In this document: piece after piece, positions 15,145-49,548 of the stretch
Position numbering within the stretch: the first letter of the stretch is position 1
How the letters are laid out: each line of letters starts with the position of its first letter
Assembly: GCF_023516555.1 (NCBI RefSeq)
Contig: NZ_JAMGBD010000001.1
Location: 992,001 to 1,056,000 of the forward strand
Reading direction: 5' to 3'
DNA from: Sphingomonas alba
Lineage (GTDB): Bacteria > Pseudomonadota > Alphaproteobacteria > Sphingomonadales > Sphingomonadaceae
Length of the DNA: 64,000 nt
Made by a program: the position numbers and the translations under genes
The notes under the pieces: generated by a model
What the model saw: the letters and a program-made list of their open reading frames with translations, nothing else
The model's database searches: none
Told to the model about the DNA's origin: nothing

Positions 15145-15891
15145 TCAGGCTTCGTCGTCGAGGGCGCTTTCCTCGCTATCATCGTGACGACGCCGGGCGA
15201 TCGCATCGCTGCCGGCGCTCAGTTCGTCGACTTCGCCCATGATCGTCTGCAGCGCCGACTTGTTCGGGTCGGTCTTGTGCTGGCGGCGGGAGGGCAGCTT
15301 GCCGCCTGACAGGAGGGCTTCCAACGCCACACGACCACGGGCCACGCGGCTTTTGATCGTGCCGACCGCGCAGCCGCAGATTTCCGCCGCTTCTTCGTAG
15401 GCAAAACCGCCGGCGCCGACGAGGATCAAAGCCTCGCGCTGTGGCTGCGGCAGATGCATCAACGCCCGCTGCATGTCACCGAGCTCGATATGCCGATCCT
15501 GGCTCGCCGGAGCGGCAAGGATCTTCGAGGCGGTGAGGTCATCCCACTCGCCCTTGAACCGCGCGCGGCGCATCTGGCTGAGGAACAGGTTGCGCAAGAT
15601 GATGAAGGTCCAGGCCCGCATGTTGGTGCCGGCCTGGAACCGCTTGCGCGCCGCCCATGCTTTAAGAAGCGTTTCCTGGACGAGGTCGTCGGCGAGGTCG
15701 CGGCTGCCCGACAGCGAACGTCCGAAGGCGCGCAGGTGCGGGATCACCGCCGCCAGATGGTCTTTGAACTCATCGTCGGGGAGCGGCACCGGCTCGGGCC
15801 GTACCTCCTCGATGATTTCGTCGTCTTCAGCTTCGTCGGACACTTTACCCCACCCCGTTGCTGGGCCGGAGGCCGCATGCGCAATGTTCAT
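15145..15891 (-). CDS. ecfG: General stress response ECF sigma factor, EcfG type
   Basis: 248 residues. Region 2 is in residues 40-110 (IPHLRAFGRSLSGSRDLADDLVQETLLKAW, TNMRAWTFIILRN). Region 4 helix-turn-helix is near residues 130-190 (LPQPQREALILVGAGGFAYEEAA, CGCAVGTIKSRVARGR). Both match the EcfG group, which NepR sequesters and phosphorylated PhyR releases. Acidic N-terminal and about 55-residue C-terminal extensions make it longer than typical EcfG (about 180 residues). It follows a 45-residue membrane protein gene in one unit with an EcfG-type promoter, which suggests autoactivation. Confidence 0.9.
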   Translation of the reverse strand: MNIAHAASGPATGWGKVSDEAEDDEIIEEVRPEPVPLPDDEFKDHLAAVIPHLRAFGRSLSGSRDLADDLVQETLLKAWAARKRFQAGTNMRAWTFIILRNLFLSQMRRARFKGEWDDLTASKILAAPASQDRHIELGDMQRALMHLPQPQREALILVGAGGFAYEEAAEICGCAVGTIKSRVARGRVALEALLSGGKLPSRRQHKTDPNKSALQTIMGEVDELSAGSDAIARRRHDDSEESALDDEA

Positions 15892-16132: not shown

Positions 16133-16936
16133 CTATCCCGCTGGAACGGTCGCCGCGTCGAAGAACAGGGCCTGGCTGATCGCCGCCTTCACTGTCGAGC
16201 GCTGGAATGGCTTGGTGATGAGGAATGTCGGCTCCGGCCGGGTACCGGTCAACAGGCGCTCCGGAAAGGCGGTGATAAAGATCACGGGCACCGAAAATTC
16301 GGCGAGGATGTCCTTGACCGCGTCGATGCCCGAACTGTCGTCGGCGAGCTGGATGTCCGCCAGTACCAACGTCGGCGGCGACTGGCGCGCCTGGGCGACT
16401 GCCTCGGTGCGCGTGACTGCAACGCCGGTGACGTTGTGACCAAGGTCGCGGACAATCATTTCGATGTCCATTGCGATAATCGGCTCGTCTTCGATGATCA
16501 GCACGTCCGCATGGGTCTGGCGCTCGATTTCGGCCAGAGCCTCAGCGACCAGGCTGTCCACGTCTTCTGGCGAGACACCAATCAGATATGCGGCGTCCTC
16601 CGTCGAAAACCCTTCTAGCGACGTCAGCAGCAAAGCCTGGCGCGACAGTGGCGTGATGCGTGACAGCCGAGCTTGAGCGATGCCTTCGGCGCCGAAACCG
16701 GTGACACCCGAAGGCTCCTCGCCCGGCTCGATATTCGCGGTCGACCAGATGGCGTGGAAGGTCTTGTAGAGACCCAGCCGGGGGTCGACGTCCCGGGGGA
16801 AATCATTCGGCGCGGCGACGATGGCTTCGAGCGCTGCACGCACGAAGGCGTCACCATGAGCCTGCGATCCCGTAAGGGCGCGGGCATAGCGGCGAAGAAA
16901 CGGCAGGTGCGGCGCGAGTTCCTGTCCAAGCGACAT
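16133..16936 (-). CDS. phyR: General stress response regulator PhyR
   Basis: 267 residues. Residues 1-130 are a sigma-factor-like domain with EcfG-like regions 2 and 4. Residues 142-255 are a receiver domain with acidic residues in IIEDEPIIAMD, phospho-acceptor Asp194 (LADIQL), and FITAFPERLLTG in place of the usual T/A switch loop, as in the FAT GUY receivers. When phosphorylated, PhyR binds NepR and frees EcfG. AGGGAGAG 7 nt upstream supports the ATG at 16936. Divergent from nepR-phyP, with a shared promoter region. Confidence 0.96.
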   Translation of the reverse strand: MSLGQELAPHLPFLRRYARALTGSQAHGDAFVRAALEAIVAAPNDFPRDVDPRLGLYKTFHAIWSTANIEPGEEPSGVTGFGAEGIAQARLSRITPLSRQALLLTSLEGFSTEDAAYLIGVSPEDVDSLVAEALAEIERQTHADVLIIEDEPIIAMDIEMIVRDLGHNVTGVAVTRTEAVAQARQSPPTLVLADIQLADDSSGIDAVKDILAEFSVPVIFITAFPERLLTGTRPEPTFLITKPFQRSTVKAAISQALFFDAATVPAG

Positions 16937-17057
16937 TCAAAGTCTCTCCCTGAATCCCCGGCGGCCCTATTGGGCGCACCGTATGATCGTTGCAACCCCG
17001 GAACCGAACGCCACGCGGTCCAGCCGCCTGCATCCCCCCGAGATCATTTCGAGTGTT

Positions 17058-17085
17058 GGAACAAAGAAGCGCGCTTTTAGTTTCC
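17058..17085. promoter_or_regulatory. Near-symmetrical EcfG-type promoter between phyR and nepR
   Basis: Plus strand: GGAAC (17058-17062), 16 nt, AGTT (17079-17082). Minus strand: GGAAAC (17085-17080), then TGTT 16 nt further on. Both lie on the same 28 bp around the palindrome AAGCGCGCTT. Each strand is near the EcfG consensus, so the site may fire in both directions. Confidence 0.5.
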
Positions 17086-17243
17086 ACGCATCAATTGGGG
17101 GCGTTTTTCCTTGCAGTTTGACGAGGTGCAAAGGGGGGATATAGGTGCGCGCCAAAGCCGCTATCGACCCGTCTTGCGTAGTGGATGTGAAGAGGACCAT
17201 GTGGGTCGAACATTTGATGTACCCAGGCGAGGGGGACGACGAG

Positions 17244-17429
17244 TTGAGTGACAAGCGCAACAGCGACCGTCTCGCCGGAAAGGACAATTCGAAAGTGCGT
17301 TCCAAGCGCAAACCTGAAGGAGGCTCGAAAGCCGGCGACCTCGGGAAAGCCTTGCGATCGGTTTACGACAATACGCTTCGCGAAGAGGTTCCGGGCGATT
17401 TTCTCGACCTGCTGGGCAAGCTCAGCTAG
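17244..17429 (+). CDS. nepR: Anti-sigma factor NepR
   Basis: Binds EcfG in unstressed cells and is captured by phosphorylated PhyR. The conserved core, KALRSVYDNTLREEVPGDFLDLLGKLS, has both NepR helices. I chose the TTG at 17244 (61 residues), with GAGGGGG 8 nt upstream, because it gives the usual family length. A GTG at 17145 with AAGGGGGG upstream would give 94 residues with an unusual N-terminus and cannot be excluded. It is followed 27 bp later by the phyP-like gene. Confidence 0.9.
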   Translation: MSDKRNSDRLAGKDNSKVRSKRKPEGGSKAGDLGKALRSVYDNTLREEVPGDFLDLLGKLS

Positions 17430-17456: not shown

Positions 17457-18989
17457 GTGGACGAACGTCCTTCCCAATTCGATCGCCTGCCGACGGGCAC
17501 GAAGCTGTTGCTGATCCTGTCTGCGGCGCTGCTGCCGCTCGGCCTCGCGCTGGCCTGGGCAGCGCGCGACAGCCTGCACGACGCCAATATCGCCAACCGC
17601 GAAGCATCCGAGGAACAAGGCCGCGCGGTCGCACGGGCCATTGAGAGCCTGATTGCCCGCAATGCGCTGGCGCTCAGCGTCGCCGCCAACGGCGCCTTTC
17701 ACGACAATAGCGACGACCCCTGCGGCAATGCCGCACAATCGCTCGCGGTGACTCCGGCGATCGCCAACCGCTTCACCATCCGCGACACCAACGGCAAACT
17801 CCTTTGCGCCCATGGCAATTTCGAGCCCCGGCGCGAAGAGACCCTTGTGGCGCCCGGCGACATCAGGCTGTGGGTGTCGCGTCAGGACAATGCTGTCGAC
17901 TATCGCGTGGGGGTCGCCGGCGGCATGGCGACGGGCGATGTGACAGTCGATGCCTTGCGCGCAGCCGCCGCCGAAGTCAGCAAGGACATCGACGAACTCG
18001 TCGTCACGGATGGCGGCAGCCAGCTCGCCATCATTGAATCGCATCGCGCTGCTTCGACCGCCCAGCCGCTGCGCGGCCGGCACCGGATCGGCAGCGGCCA
18101 GCTGGAAGTCCACACCGCTGTCAATGTCGATCACACGACGATCTTCGACCAGGTGGCGATGATGCTGCCGATCCTGATGTGGGTCGTGGCGGCTTTGCTG
18201 AGCTGGTACCTGGTGCGTCGTTCACTGATCCAGCCCCTCGGGAGGCTGACGAGCGCGGTTACGGCCTATCAACCGGGCGACACTCTCGAGCTGCCGGAAA
18301 AACTGGGGCCTGCGGCAGAGATTCGCGAGCTTGGGCAGGCGTTCGAGCGCGCAGTCGCGAGGATCGAGGAATCCGAGCGCCATATGGCGGAAGCGCTGGA
18401 GGGCCAGAGGCGGTTGGTGCGCGAGGTCCATCACCGCGTGAAGAATAATTTGCAGGTCGTCGCCTCGCTTCTCAACATTCACGGCCGCAGCGCAACGATG
18501 CCGGAAGCACGCGCTGCTTATGCGGCGATCGGGCGCCGCGTCGACGCGCTGAGCGTCGTCCATCGCAACCATTTCGCCGAGGTCGAGGAGAGTCGCGGCA
18601 TTTCCCTGCGGCCGTTGCTCGTCGAGCTCTCGGCGACGCTGCGAGCCTCGGCACCGGACGATGCCAAGGCAACGCCAATCCAGCTCGACGTCGACCATCT
18701 GTACACGACGCAGGATGCCGCGGTGGCAGCCGCCTTCTTCGTCACCGAGGTCGTCGAGTTCGCCATGCTGGACCAACCCGGCCAACCGATCGAAATCGAG
18801 CTGAGGCGGATCAGCGAACTGGTCGCCCACCTCACGATTTCCAGCAACGCCCTGACGCCCGCGAAGGATGGAGACGCCCAGCGGCAGCAGTTCAGCCGGA
18901 TCATCGGCGGGCTGGCGCGGCAGTTGAGGTCACCGCTCGACGAGAGAATGGGGCGCTTGAGCGTTGATATTCCGGTCTTTCCCGACTGA
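17457..18989 (+). CDS. phyP: HisKA_2-type sensor kinase relative, PhyP-like regulator of PhyR
   Basis: 510 residues. Membrane helices near 15-33 and 236-256 enclose a periplasmic sensor region. A HAMP-like linker follows, then a HisKA_2 domain with EVHHRVKNNLQVV near residue 323. The C-terminal ATPase region is degenerate: the N-box position reads FFVTEVVEFA with no Asn, and no glycine-rich loop follows. In Sphingomonas, PhyP at this locus acts as a negative regulator (phosphatase) of PhyR. The loss of ATP-binding residues fits that role better than a kinase. Operon with nepR. Confidence 0.8.
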   Translation: MDERPSQFDRLPTGTKLLLILSAALLPLGLALAWAARDSLHDANIANREASEEQGRAVARAIESLIARNALALSVAANGAFHDNSDDPCGNAAQSLAVTPAIANRFTIRDTNGKLLCAHGNFEPRREETLVAPGDIRLWVSRQDNAVDYRVGVAGGMATGDVTVDALRAAAAEVSKDIDELVVTDGGSQLAIIESHRAASTAQPLRGRHRIGSGQLEVHTAVNVDHTTIFDQVAMMLPILMWVVAALLSWYLVRRSLIQPLGRLTSAVTAYQPGDTLELPEKLGPAAEIRELGQAFERAVARIEESERHMAEALEGQRRLVREVHHRVKNNLQVVASLLNIHGRSATMPEARAAYAAIGRRVDALSVVHRNHFAEVEESRGISLRPLLVELSATLRASAPDDAKATPIQLDVDHLYTTQDAAVAAAFFVTEVVEFAMLDQPGQPIEIELRRISELVAHLTISSNALTPAKDGDAQRQQFSRIIGGLARQLRSPLDERMGRLSVDIPVFPD

Positions 18990-19035
18990 TCGGGCATTTT
19001 TCACGCCGCCGCGAAAAATTTTTTCAAAGAGGGGC

Positions 19036-19061
19036 GGAACCCACCGGAAACGCAGGACGTT
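19036..19061 (+). promoter_or_regulatory. EcfG-type promoter driving no protein gene
   Basis: GGAAC (19036-19040), 17 nt, CGTT (19058-19061): an exact consensus match. It lies 46 bp after the phyP stop, and no open reading frame follows on this strand. It points at the hairpin element annotated as an sRNA. Confidence 0.75.
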
Positions 19062-19067
19062 GTGCAG

Positions 19068-19172
19068 GTTGGATAGTGACCTTTTGCCCCCCCGCTCTCG
19101 CTATCCGCTTAAATGGGCCCGGACTCGCCAACCCTCCCCCCCCCCGGTGGCGAATCCGGGCCCACGTTTCTC
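19068..19172 (+). ncRNA. Candidate GsrN-like general stress sRNA
   Basis: About 105 nt predicted from the start expected 7-10 nt after the EcfG -10 element. Hairpin 1 pairs GGATAGTGA (19071-19079) with TCGCTATCC (19098-19106) around an 18-nt loop holding CCCCCCC (19087-19093). Hairpin 2 has a 17-bp stem (19114-19130 with 19148-19164), a loop with C10, and the tail CGUUUCUCU, a plausible terminator. GsrN of Caulobacter is a similarly sized, EcfG-class-dependent sRNA with a C-rich target-binding loop, and relatives are often near nepR/ecfG. The 3' half is antisense to the end of tatC. Ends are predicted, not measured. Confidence 0.6.
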
Positions 19173-19951
19173 TGGGGCCCTTCATCTCCATTTGAGGCAG
19201 AGGCTTTGGCCAGGCGAGCAGCGCGCCAGTGCGTGATGCGAATGGCGAGGATCGCGAACTCGTATAGCAAATATAGCGGCACGAGCAGGATCAGCATCGA
19301 GACGACATCGGGCGGCGTCAGAACCGCCGACACCGCTGCGCAGACGACGATCGCGTAGCGGCGCGACTTGGCGAGCTGCTCCCGCGTGACAATCCCGGCC
19401 CGCTCTAGGATCATCAGCAGCACAGGTGTCAGGAAGGCTACGCCGAAGCCGAACAGAAAGCGGGTCGAGAAGGCCAAATAATTGCCCACAGCGGGCAAGG
19501 CTTCCTGATGGATGCCGCCGATTTCGCCCTGGTAGCCGAGCAGGAAATGCAGCGCCCACGGCATCGCGACGAAATAGGCGAAGCTTGCGCCCATCGCGAA
19601 GAACAGGGGCGTCATGATCAGGAAGGGCAGAAGCGCCTTCTTCTCCTTGGCGTAGAGGCCGGGCGCAACGAACTTCCAGATTTGCGTGGCAATGAAGGGG
19701 AAGGTGATCATCGCTGCGGCGAACAGGGCGACCTTCACCTCGGCAAAGAAGGCTTCGAAAATATCCGTGTAGATGAGCTTGCCCTGGCCGGCTTCGAGCA
19801 ACGGCTGGACGAGGACCGCGAAGATATCGCGGGCGAAGTAGAGGCAGATGAAAAAGGCAGCCGCCAGCGCTGCGATGCACATGATCAAACGGCGCCTGAG
19901 CTCGACCAGGTGCTCCATCAGCGGCGCCTTGGTGTCGTCGATATCCTTCAC
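19109..19951 (-). CDS. tatC: Sec-independent (Tat) translocase subunit TatC
   Basis: Receptor for twin-arginine signal peptides, 280 residues, six membrane helices. The conserved N-terminus MEHLVELRRRL and the FIATQIWKFVAPGLYAKEKK loop are present. Its GTG start overlaps the tatB stop (GTGA). The last 17 residues are encoded by a long inverted repeat with a G10 tract (coding strand), which also forms the end of the candidate sRNA on the other strand. Without it the protein would end near the usual family length. Confidence 0.96.
   Translation of the reverse strand: MKDIDDTKAPLMEHLVELRRRLIMCIAALAAAFFICLYFARDIFAVLVQPLLEAGQGKLIYTDIFEAFFAEVKVALFAAAMITFPFIATQIWKFVAPGLYAKEKKALLPFLIMTPLFFAMGASFAYFVAMPWALHFLLGYQGEIGGIHQEALPAVGNYLAFSTRFLFGFGVAFLTPVLLMILERAGIVTREQLAKSRRYAIVVCAAVSAVLTPPDVVSMLILLVPLYLLYEFAILAIRITHWRAARLAKASASNGDEGPQRNVGPDSPPGGGRVGESGPI
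19114..19164. repeat. 17-bp inverted repeat with a C10 tract in the loop
   Basis: Stems 19114-19130 and 19148-19164 differ at one position. The loop holds ten consecutive C (19136-19145). It lies at the meeting point of two convergent units (nepR-phyP-sRNA and the tat genes), inside the 3' end of tatC. It may serve as a two-way terminator. The homopolymer is prone to slippage. Confidence 0.8.
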
Positions 19952-31466: not shown

Positions 31467-32708
31467 TTAGCCCCGCCGCGCATCCCAATCGATCTCCCGG
31501 ATTTCGGGCAACAGGAATGCCCACCAAAGTGCCCCGACGGCAGCGATGGCCGCGGTCAACAGAAAGGCACTCGTATAGCCGGCTCGATCGACGATTATGC
31601 CTGTGACGACCGGGCCAACGATGCCCGACAAATTGCCGAGCGCATTCTGAATTCCGACCCAACTACCGGACGCGCGCGGACCGGCATACATTTGCGCAAT
31701 GGCATAAAGGTTCATCGACAGCGCAGCGGTCGCGGCGCCGGCAAAGCTGAGAAGAATGCCGATTTCGAATGCGGTGTCCGCATAGGCCAGGCCGAGGATG
31801 GCGCCGGCGGCAAGCAGCTGGCTCAAAACCATCATCCATTTCCGGCACGCGGCTTCGGATCGGCCCGACCGCGTCCACCAGTCCGAGAAATGACCGTAGC
31901 CGAACGCGCAAGCGCCCTGAACGGCATACCCGAGCGAAGCAAGATAGGTCATCTCCGTGATGGTGAAGCCGCGCGACTTGGTGAGGTAAAGCGGCAGCCA
32001 GGCCAGCAGGAAGTAGAAGCAGTAATTGCCGAGAGCGTGAACAATAGAGATCGACCACAATGGCCATTGGCTCAGGAGGACGCGAGCCGGCACGCGCCGC
32101 TCATCCATATTCGCGACTTGAGCGGGCAGATTGCGAACCAGCGGCTGCCACGGGATCAACCAAAGCAAGGTCGCGAGACCGAATAGGAAGAACATCGTCC
32201 GCCAGCCCCAGCTGGCGACAATCAGGCCGCCCGCAAGCGTTCCAAGCGCGGGTCCCAGCGCGATACCCATGGCGAGCGCGGCGTTGGCGACCCCGCGCCG
32301 CTCCGCCGGAACGTGCCTGGCGACAATCTTCGATGCGCCGGGGAAAGCGATGCTTTCGCCAATGCCTAGCATGATGCGGAGCACGAGCAGCGACACGAAA
32401 CCGCCGACGAGACCCATCAACAGCGTGCTCGCCGCCCACAGGAGGATGCCAGCCGCGATCAACTTGTAGACCGAGAAGCGATCGCACAGCCAACCGGCGA
32501 AGAGCTGAACCGGTGCGTAAACCCAGAAGAAGGCGGAGACGGCGAGGCCGAAGTCGGTCGCACTTAACCCGAGTTCGCCTTTCATCACCGGGGCGGCAAC
32601 CGCAATTGCGCCGCGATCTACGTAGTTGAGGAAGACTGCGACGCCCAAAAGCAGGATCAGCGCGTTCCCGGCCGTCCGTACGGTCGCCCCTGTAGTTGCT
32701 GTCGCCAT
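31467..32708 (-). CDS. MFS transporter (anion:cation symporter type) between ftsA and ftsZ
   Basis: 413 residues, 12 membrane helices. Loop 2-3 has GWLCDRFSVYK (DRxG-like motif) and helix 4-5 GIGESIAFPGASK, as in the ACS group that carries sugar acids and other organic anions. The substrate is unknown. It interrupts the ftsA-ftsZ pair of the dcw cluster. Just upstream of the ATG there is no normal ribosome binding site, only G10 and two T. Confidence 0.9.
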   Translation of the reverse strand: MATATTGATVRTAGNALILLLGVAVFLNYVDRGAIAVAAPVMKGELGLSATDFGLAVSAFFWVYAPVQLFAGWLCDRFSVYKLIAAGILLWAASTLLMGLVGGFVSLLVLRIMLGIGESIAFPGASKIVARHVPAERRGVANAALAMGIALGPALGTLAGGLIVASWGWRTMFFLFGLATLLWLIPWQPLVRNLPAQVANMDERRVPARVLLSQWPLWSISIVHALGNYCFYFLLAWLPLYLTKSRGFTITEMTYLASLGYAVQGACAFGYGHFSDWWTRSGRSEAACRKWMMVLSQLLAAGAILGLAYADTAFEIGILLSFAGAATAALSMNLYAIAQMYAGPRASGSWVGIQNALGNLSGIVGPVVTGIIVDRAGYTSAFLLTAAIAAVGALWWAFLLPEIREIDWDARRG

Positions 32709-32710
32709 AA

Positions 32711-32720
32711 CCCCCCCCCC
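32711..32720 (-). promoter_or_regulatory. G10 tract in place of the MFS ribosome binding site
   Basis: Ten consecutive G on the coding strand, 2 nt before the MFS ATG and 10 nt after the ftsA stop. Such tracts change length by slippage in some bacteria; here a length change would alter spacing or pairing at translation start. Confidence 0.6.
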
Positions 32721-49060: not shown

Positions 49061-49548
49061 GGCTTCACCCCCCGCTCTTCCAAACGGAAGCGGGCGATAT
49101 CTTTCATGTCCTCAGGAATGCGCTTGTCGGCGAGGAACAGCTTGGGGTTCCAGATCTGGAAGGTCTCACCGGCGCCCAGGAACAGCGCGAGTTCGCCGAG
49201 TTCACCCTTGCGGCGCATCATCGGTGGCAAGACGATGCGGCCGGAGGCGTCGTAGGGCACTTCCTCGGTAGCGCCGAAGGCCATGAGCGTGCGGGCCTGA
49301 TAGGCAAGCTCGGCTTCGGGGTTGAGTTCGTCCTTCTCGAACTGGCGCTCGATCTTGGCGTGCTTCAGCGCGGCATAGCCGGGATCGTAAGCGGAGAGGC
49401 AGGCGAAGGCGTCATGCTTGGCAAGCACGATGGTTTTGGCGTCGCCGCGGCGTTCGATGACGGAGCGCAGGAAGGCGGGCACGGAGACGCGACCCTTCGC
49501 GTCGACCGCGTTCAAGGCACTGCCCTGAAACAGATGCTCTAGCGCCAC
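49057..49548 (-). CDS. mraZ: Transcriptional regulator MraZ
   Basis: 163 residues with two AbrB-like units, each with a DxxGR core: DAKGRVSVP near residue 16 and DASGRIVLP near residue 98. MraZ binds its own promoter and represses the dcw cluster in E. coli. GTG start with GGAGTAGGAC upstream; overlaps rsmH by 4 bp. Confidence 0.96.

Follow-up and report, generated by a model that had tools for sequence, protein, structure and literature searches.

Gene content of the locus

The window analysed here, a 64,000-nucleotide stretch of Sphingomonas alba DNA, carries genes of the general stress response (GSR). On the reverse strand lie an ecfG-type sigma factor gene (15145 to 15891; Pfam Sigma70_r2 and r4_2), named EcfG from its place beside phyR-nepR, and phyR (16133 to 16936; Pfam PhyR_sigma2, PhyR_sigma-like and Response_reg). 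The forward strand carries nepR, encoding the anti-sigma factor (17244 to 17429, most likely starting at TTG 17244; Pfam NepR, E 3e-7), and a gene for a phyP/phyT-like HWE/HisKA_2 sensor protein (17457 to 18989; Pfam HisKA_2, HAMP and HWE_HK), the name PhyP again being taken from position. A putative EcfG-like promoter of nepR-phyP, GGAAC-N16-AGTT, was read by eye at 17058 to 17082 (+). Convergent to these genes is tatC (19109 to 19951, -; Pfam TatC, E 1.8e-68).

Downstream of phyP, sequence and conservation point to an EcfG-type promoter (19036 to 19061, +), with GGAAC at 19036 to 19040, a spacer of 17 nt and CGTT at 19058 to 19061. It precedes a candidate sRNA of about 105 nt (19068 to about 19172, +), predicted from fold and covariation, which would start about 7 nt past the -10 element and end in the T-rich stretch beyond its second hairpin. 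Hairpin 1 (19071 to 19106, +; GGATAGTGA...CTATCC), assigned from its fold and loop conservation, has a C7 loop at 19087 to 19093. Hairpin 2 (19115 to 19163, +), assigned from its fold and pair changes, resembles an intrinsic terminator with a T-rich stretch on its 3' side, overlaps the 3' end of tatC and has the loop CCCTC10, with the C10 at 19136 to 19145. The folding energy of positions 19068 to 19175 is -47.1 kcal/mol (z -5.6), which none of 200 shuffles equalled; hairpin 1 alone gives z -3.7 (1/200 shuffles equal) and hairpin 2 alone z -6.3 (0/200).

A preliminary description of this DNA had proposed an EcfG promoter ahead of about 105 nt with C7 and C10 hairpin loops; its coordinates are correct, and the fold and the conservation described below agree with it. 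Its statement that the region holds no reading frame needs rewording, as a 90-aa TTG ORF on the forward strand and the tatC ORF on the reverse strand both cross it. What holds is that the C-runs vary in length (C4 to C10 in loop 1 and C5 to C13 in loop 2, across 84 sequences), so that no conserved reading frame fits the sRNA region. Within the genome itself the pattern GGAAC-N17-CGTT is not enriched (25 matches vs 69 for a reversed control), and a single promoter match therefore proves nothing; chance is excluded in this case because the promoter is conserved at a fixed distance across loci.

Distribution and conservation of the sRNA family

A DNA search covering 61 genomes gave matches at E<1e-24 in 35 of the 37 same-genus genomes, the window's own included; the two lacking one are 77% and 79% complete. 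The best E value in the 24 genomes of other families was only 0.038. We built a covariance model from the 35 same-genus sequences and ran it on 396 Sphingomonadales genomes. It matched 98 of them at E<=1e-5, every one belonging to the window's family (27 of the same genus and 71 of other genera), while five more genomes of the order matched only at E 0.0037 to 0.97. Large covariance searches apply stricter filters, and a more sensitive re-search of 20 family genomes with no match recovered four divergent members, with E values between 5e-9 and 3e-5; all four are preceded by GGAAC-N16/17-NGTT and carry C-rich loops on different stems. Among 385 genomes of the class, a sample that may hold no Caulobacteraceae, the convincing matches were two already known members, and three weak matches (E 0.01 to 0.07) had no GGAAC-N16/17-NGTT promoter. 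Among the matches listed, the hairpin 1 pattern is present in Sphingomonas, Sphingobium, Sphingomicrobium, Sphingosinicella, Stakelama, Hephaestia, Parasphingopyxis, Rhizorhapis and Sphingorhabdus.

The paired structure is conserved through changes on both sides of the stems. In an alignment of 84 sequences, which was itself fitted to the model, 27 of the 29 base pairs have changed on both sides, and 93.7% of cells are paired vs 30.9 to 40.6% with slid partners; all 19 pairs of hairpin 2 are among those that change on both sides. A MAFFT alignment of the 35 same-genus sequences, not fitted to the model, gives two-sided changes in 9 of 29 pairs and 95.5% of cells paired. The loops are kept too, with a C-run of at least six in loop 1 of 83/84 sequences and of at least five in loop 2 of 84/84.

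Of the 103 aligned loci, 87 have the exact promoter (GGAAC-N16/17-CGTT), where shuffles predict 0.015, and 101 have it when NGTT is allowed. All 36 full same-genus loci carry the exact form at a fixed distance (the 37th is a contig-end piece without a full copy), as do 51 of the 67 full-length loci from other genera, 65 of which have NGTT. As the preliminary description had noted for the window, the sRNA lies near the stress regulators: phyP is upstream in 36/36 same-genus loci and in 53/67 of the others (the remaining 14/67 have no phyP match). Beyond the sRNA, tatC is convergent in 35/36 and 62/67 loci, respectively. The promoter and synteny counts leave out the family loci L063, L064 and L067, as well as L158, an incomplete locus. 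We judge it almost certain that these loci form a genuine sRNA family whose promoter is of the EcfG type.

Other weak matches to the model (L161 to L163 and L165 to L172) were set aside as chance terminators; they lack an exact GGAAC-N16/17-CGTT, and their 5-kb loci contain none of eight window proteins. In L164 (strand -, 2501 to 2608), from genome G312, we observed a second C-rich two-hairpin element with GGAAC-N16-TGTT ahead of it, which is perhaps a paralogous EcfG sRNA; none of the eight window proteins was matched in its 5-kb locus. At gathering scores, Rfam had no match in the 64,000 bases of the window. Relaxed thresholds gave three weak matches within 18500 to 19700, the best of which, Scr3202 (RF02833) at 19066 to 19167, reached 25.1 bits (E 0.44), less than half its gathering score of 52, and was taken as chance.

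The nepR start as candidate target

Runs of six G's are rarer in the window than expected from dinucleotide shuffles (20 vs 52), and the sRNA gene, read on its opposite strand, accounts for 7 of the 20. Several of the remaining runs of at least six lie at or just before gene starts, namely in the nepR leader, in the phyR leader, and at the MFS gene and rsmH, and it was this that led the search to nepR. We infer the nepR start at TTG 17244 from the genus-conserved motif GAGGGGGACGAGAGG-TTG-AGTG, and the choice of start by purine-rich site independently agrees. An alternative start at GTG 17145, which would have the G6 at 17133 to 17138 (+) ahead of it, was replaced by TTG 17244, which fits the genus motif. 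The proposed sRNA target is the G5 in the nepR ribosome-binding site (17231 to 17235, +), part of a conserved G-run at the nepR start; the G6 in the leader, a second possible pairing site, is predicted to be paired in the leader's own fold.

We took as the G-run the longest one lying 4 to 18 nt before the best in-frame start, for the 71 nepR cores recognised among 122 loci, many of which stop short of nepR. Of these 71 sRNA-bearing loci, 68 have a G-run of at least four, 50 of at least five and 13 of at least six, the window still being scored here as G6 (from GTG 17145). The same procedure applied to six control genes found at least five G's in only 5 of 353 cases (PhyR 2/74, PhyP 0/10, TatC 1/86, TatB 1/84, TatA 0/64, ScpB 1/35). 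When the nepR start was chosen by purine-rich site rather than by G-run, at least four G's were found in 51/59 loci and at least five in 38/59. This nepR G-run in sRNA-bearing genomes is a new observation.

Among 12 genomes whose sRNA gene is divergent or unlinked, just 4 have at least four G's before the first-listed nepR; 11 of the 12 are outside the 71-locus count (3/11 with at least four), and G140 is in both. Another 13 genomes of the family yielded no convincing sRNA, their best model E values being 0.018 or higher; four of these have at least four G's and three at least five. Compared with the 71 loci, this gives Fisher p values of 3.7e-7 (at least four) and 0.003 (at least five), values which ignore relatedness, as related genomes are not independent. 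The comparison set consisted of these 13 genomes and one of another family, and was searched with Pfam NepR because a regular expression missed nepR in 12 of 14 phyR loci. In 10 of the 13 (loci L375 to L388 and L418 to L434), NepR was found at E<1e-12. These 10 proteins score above the NepR of sRNA-bearing genomes searched alongside, and most are not encoded next to phyR, representing a different GSR gene order.

In the predicted duplexes between a locus's own loop and its own gene starts, the mean energy is -20.5 kcal/mol for nepR (n=59), compared with -11.5 to -13.6 across five other genes; nepR gives the strongest duplex in 30 of 42 loci. Composition-matched shuffles of the nepR starts nevertheless average -18.1 kcal/mol, and the real site falls in the best 5% for just 12/59 loci; for the window's own site, 18% of shuffles do equally well. 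We therefore rejected duplex energy as proof of nepR pairing, since it mostly reflects G-rich composition. In predicted leaders from 68 loci, the mean unpaired value of the nepR G-run is only 0.42. In 66 of 68 loci nepR starts with TTG or GTG, and a G-rich ribosome-binding site aiding such weak starts may also yield G-runs.

Two readings of these data deserve consideration. nepR may be a main target of the sRNA, a proposal that we regard as evenly balanced. Alternatively, the RNA could be a GsrN-like, EcfG-dependent sRNA with other G-rich targets, while the nepR G-run serves ordinary translation. The mostly compositional nature of the predicted nepR pairing agrees with this alternative, as do the further ribosome-binding sites with at least six G's in the window, at the MFS transporter and rsmH, and the fact that GsrN and sX13, through their C-rich loops, have many G-rich mRNAs as targets, as described in the available parts of the respective papers (PMC5869019, PMC3771888). 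It is harder to reconcile with a G-run peculiar to nepR among the seven genes compared, and with an rsmH site that is not conserved (4/15 vs 1/15, see below). We find it plausible but rather doubtful.

Other candidate targets

The G6 in the phyR mRNA leader (17034 to 17039, -) is proposed as a second target on the basis of how often phyR leaders contain such runs: between -120 and -20, at least five G's occur in 35/74 loci, vs 7/74 on the opposite strand, and the leaders of five other genes have them in 0 to 3 of 10 to 54. In the window, loop 1 pairs with the phyR start region no better than with shuffles (53% equally good).

Ten G's stand directly ahead of the ATG of an MFS transporter gene (32711 to 32720, -; gene at 31467 to 32708), which is a possible further target; 20% of shuffles pair equally well with loop 1 of the window. 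The ribosome-binding site of rsmH (49068 to 49073, -) contains an 11-nt perfect complement to loop 1. It was rejected as a target for lack of conservation, at least five G's being present in 4/15 sRNA-bearing vs 1/15 sRNA-lacking genomes. The genome contains four exact GCGGGGGGGC sites, one of which is the sRNA's own complement and another of which lies just inside a likely start codon. Whatever the individual targets, we consider it likely that the C-rich loops act on G-rich mRNAs.

Comparison with GsrN and other known RNAs

GsrN is described in the available text of its report as a SigT-dependent RNA of about 100 nt whose C-rich 5' loop binds the katG leader; by BLASTn it was found in Caulobacteraceae only, and Erythrobacter litoralis, a sphingomonad, had no apparent gsrN-like gene (PMC5869019). 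The same text places C. crescentus gsrN away from the GSR locus and the copies of most relatives near it (PMC5869019). As far as that description goes, our candidate is similar to GsrN of Caulobacter crescentus in its EcfG-type promoter, a length near 100 nt, a 5' loop rich in C and a terminator, all predicted here from sequence and fold. It lies near ecfG, nepR and phyR, like gsrN of most relatives and unlike that of C. crescentus. By the same description, it differs from GsrN in having a C-rich terminator loop as well, in lacking the katG leader site and in having nepR as its best conserved candidate target. No sequence kinship emerged from the class-wide model search, whose sample may hold no Caulobacteraceae.

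The candidate thus resembles GsrN, and identity with GsrN is not supported. Two further traits of GsrN are processing to a stable 5' isoform and an effect on peroxide survival. The match to GsrN drawn in the preliminary description survives for size, promoter class, C-rich 5' loop and GSR locus, and is not supported for identity, given the class-wide search and the absence of G5 from katG leaders (0/28). That the candidate could be a true GsrN ortholog, diverged past sequence recognition, is suggested by its agreement with GsrN in promoter class, size and C-rich 5' loop, and with the gsrN of most relatives in GSR neighbourhood, again as described in the accessible part of that work. We nevertheless judge it improbable, as the model found no promoter-bearing match outside the family in 385 class genomes (which may include no Caulobacteraceae) and all 28 katG leaders read lack G5.

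katG was accordingly rejected, for this genus, as a target shared with GsrN. Between -80 and +20, G5 is found in 0/27 and G4 in 4/27 recognised katG starts from 30 loci, and the genome's own katG has neither; two loci were left unread, and these positions are counted from start codons, which may differ from mRNA 5' ends. Many of the katG leaders (L321 to L350) share AATCGATTTT...TTAATCGTTTCC-like blocks, perhaps an OxyR site.

Other C-rich RNAs offer looser parallels. As portrayed in the available part of its paper, sX13 of Xanthomonas also combines several C-rich loops with G-rich motifs near translation starts, and differs in belonging to an unrelated lineage, in having three loops and in that no EcfG promoter is mentioned there (PMC3771888). 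The putative GsrN-like RNAs of Rhizobiaceae likewise have an EcfG-type promoter near the GSR locus and an exposed C-rich loop, as far as they are covered in the text available (PMC5869019). This likeness is one of description, the model having given no convincing match outside the family in the class sample.

We found no paper on the candidate sRNA in the open-licence literature. The available main text of the S. melonis Fr1 EcfG paper contains no mention of sRNA, small RNA or GsrN (PMC6599016), and that of the Sphingopyxis granuli EcfG paper none of sRNA, small RNA or GsrN, its sole match to "non-coding" being the SuhB reference (PMC7083833). GsrN is not mentioned in the accessible portion of an ECF review (PMC8103513).

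Termination and the overlap with tatC

A mere terminator for nepR-phyP, tatC or both, producing no separate RNA, would fit two features of hairpin 2: its strong GC stem lies between convergent genes, and the 12 nt flanking it contain similar numbers of T's on the two strands (mean 5.2 in 103 loci vs 4.7 on the opposite strand, for the 78 loci where the other hairpin edge was found). Such an element would account neither for the conserved promoter nor for a 5' hairpin with a near-invariant loop, and outside the genus tatC mostly ends 100 to 400 nt past the RNA; we consider this explanation very unlikely.

In the window the tatC ORF ends at 19109, and hairpin 2 (19115 to 19163) is antisense to its tail. 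The preliminary description had pointed to this antisense arrangement, which is real within the genus and incidental to the family: when the tatC frame is followed as far as its first stop, it runs into the sRNA in 32/35 same-genus loci vs 3/62 others. Because the overlap is rare outside the genus, antisense pairing with tatC is not the function of the sRNA family, and a cis-antisense regulator of tatC, which the 32/35 loci might suggest, is extremely unlikely when only 3/62 other-genus loci overlap though they keep the same RNA. In this genus the terminator stem is at the same time the coding end of tatC on the opposite strand (19109 to 19165), and in many loci the stop that closes the tatC frame occupies one and the same linker position.

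A possible RNA arm of the EcfG-NepR-PhyR switch

Our best model, to which we give an even chance, is a trans-acting sRNA gene of the general stress response whose C-loops mask the nepR start. Under stress, free EcfG would transcribe the sRNA from its own promoter, as the conservation of that promoter suggests. The RNA of about 105 nt would fold into two hairpins exposing C-rich loops, the second of which would also terminate transcription, and these loops would pair with G-runs near mRNA starts, with the nepR translation start as the best conserved candidate and the phyR leader as the second. If the nepR ribosome-binding site were covered, NepR synthesis would most likely fall, and with less NepR, EcfG would stay free for longer and the response would become stronger or longer; this direction is a deduction from the model, and the effect may have the opposite sign. 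That the effect on nepR is repression is possible, if somewhat doubtful. We tentatively propose, with a little less than even confidence, that the sphingomonad EcfG-NepR-PhyR switch has an RNA arm, in which an sRNA made by EcfG attaches through its C-rich loops to the G-run at the nepR start, and to the phyR leader, and exerts post-transcriptional feedback on the anti-sigma factor.

The candidate belongs to an sRNA family of conserved structure, preceded by an EcfG-type promoter and present in many genera of the family to which E. litoralis itself belongs, and it comes with a specific, testable candidate target. If the link to nepR is true, it would mean that the general stress response of alphaproteobacteria includes a feedback step at the RNA level, and it would provide a natural comparison with GsrN.
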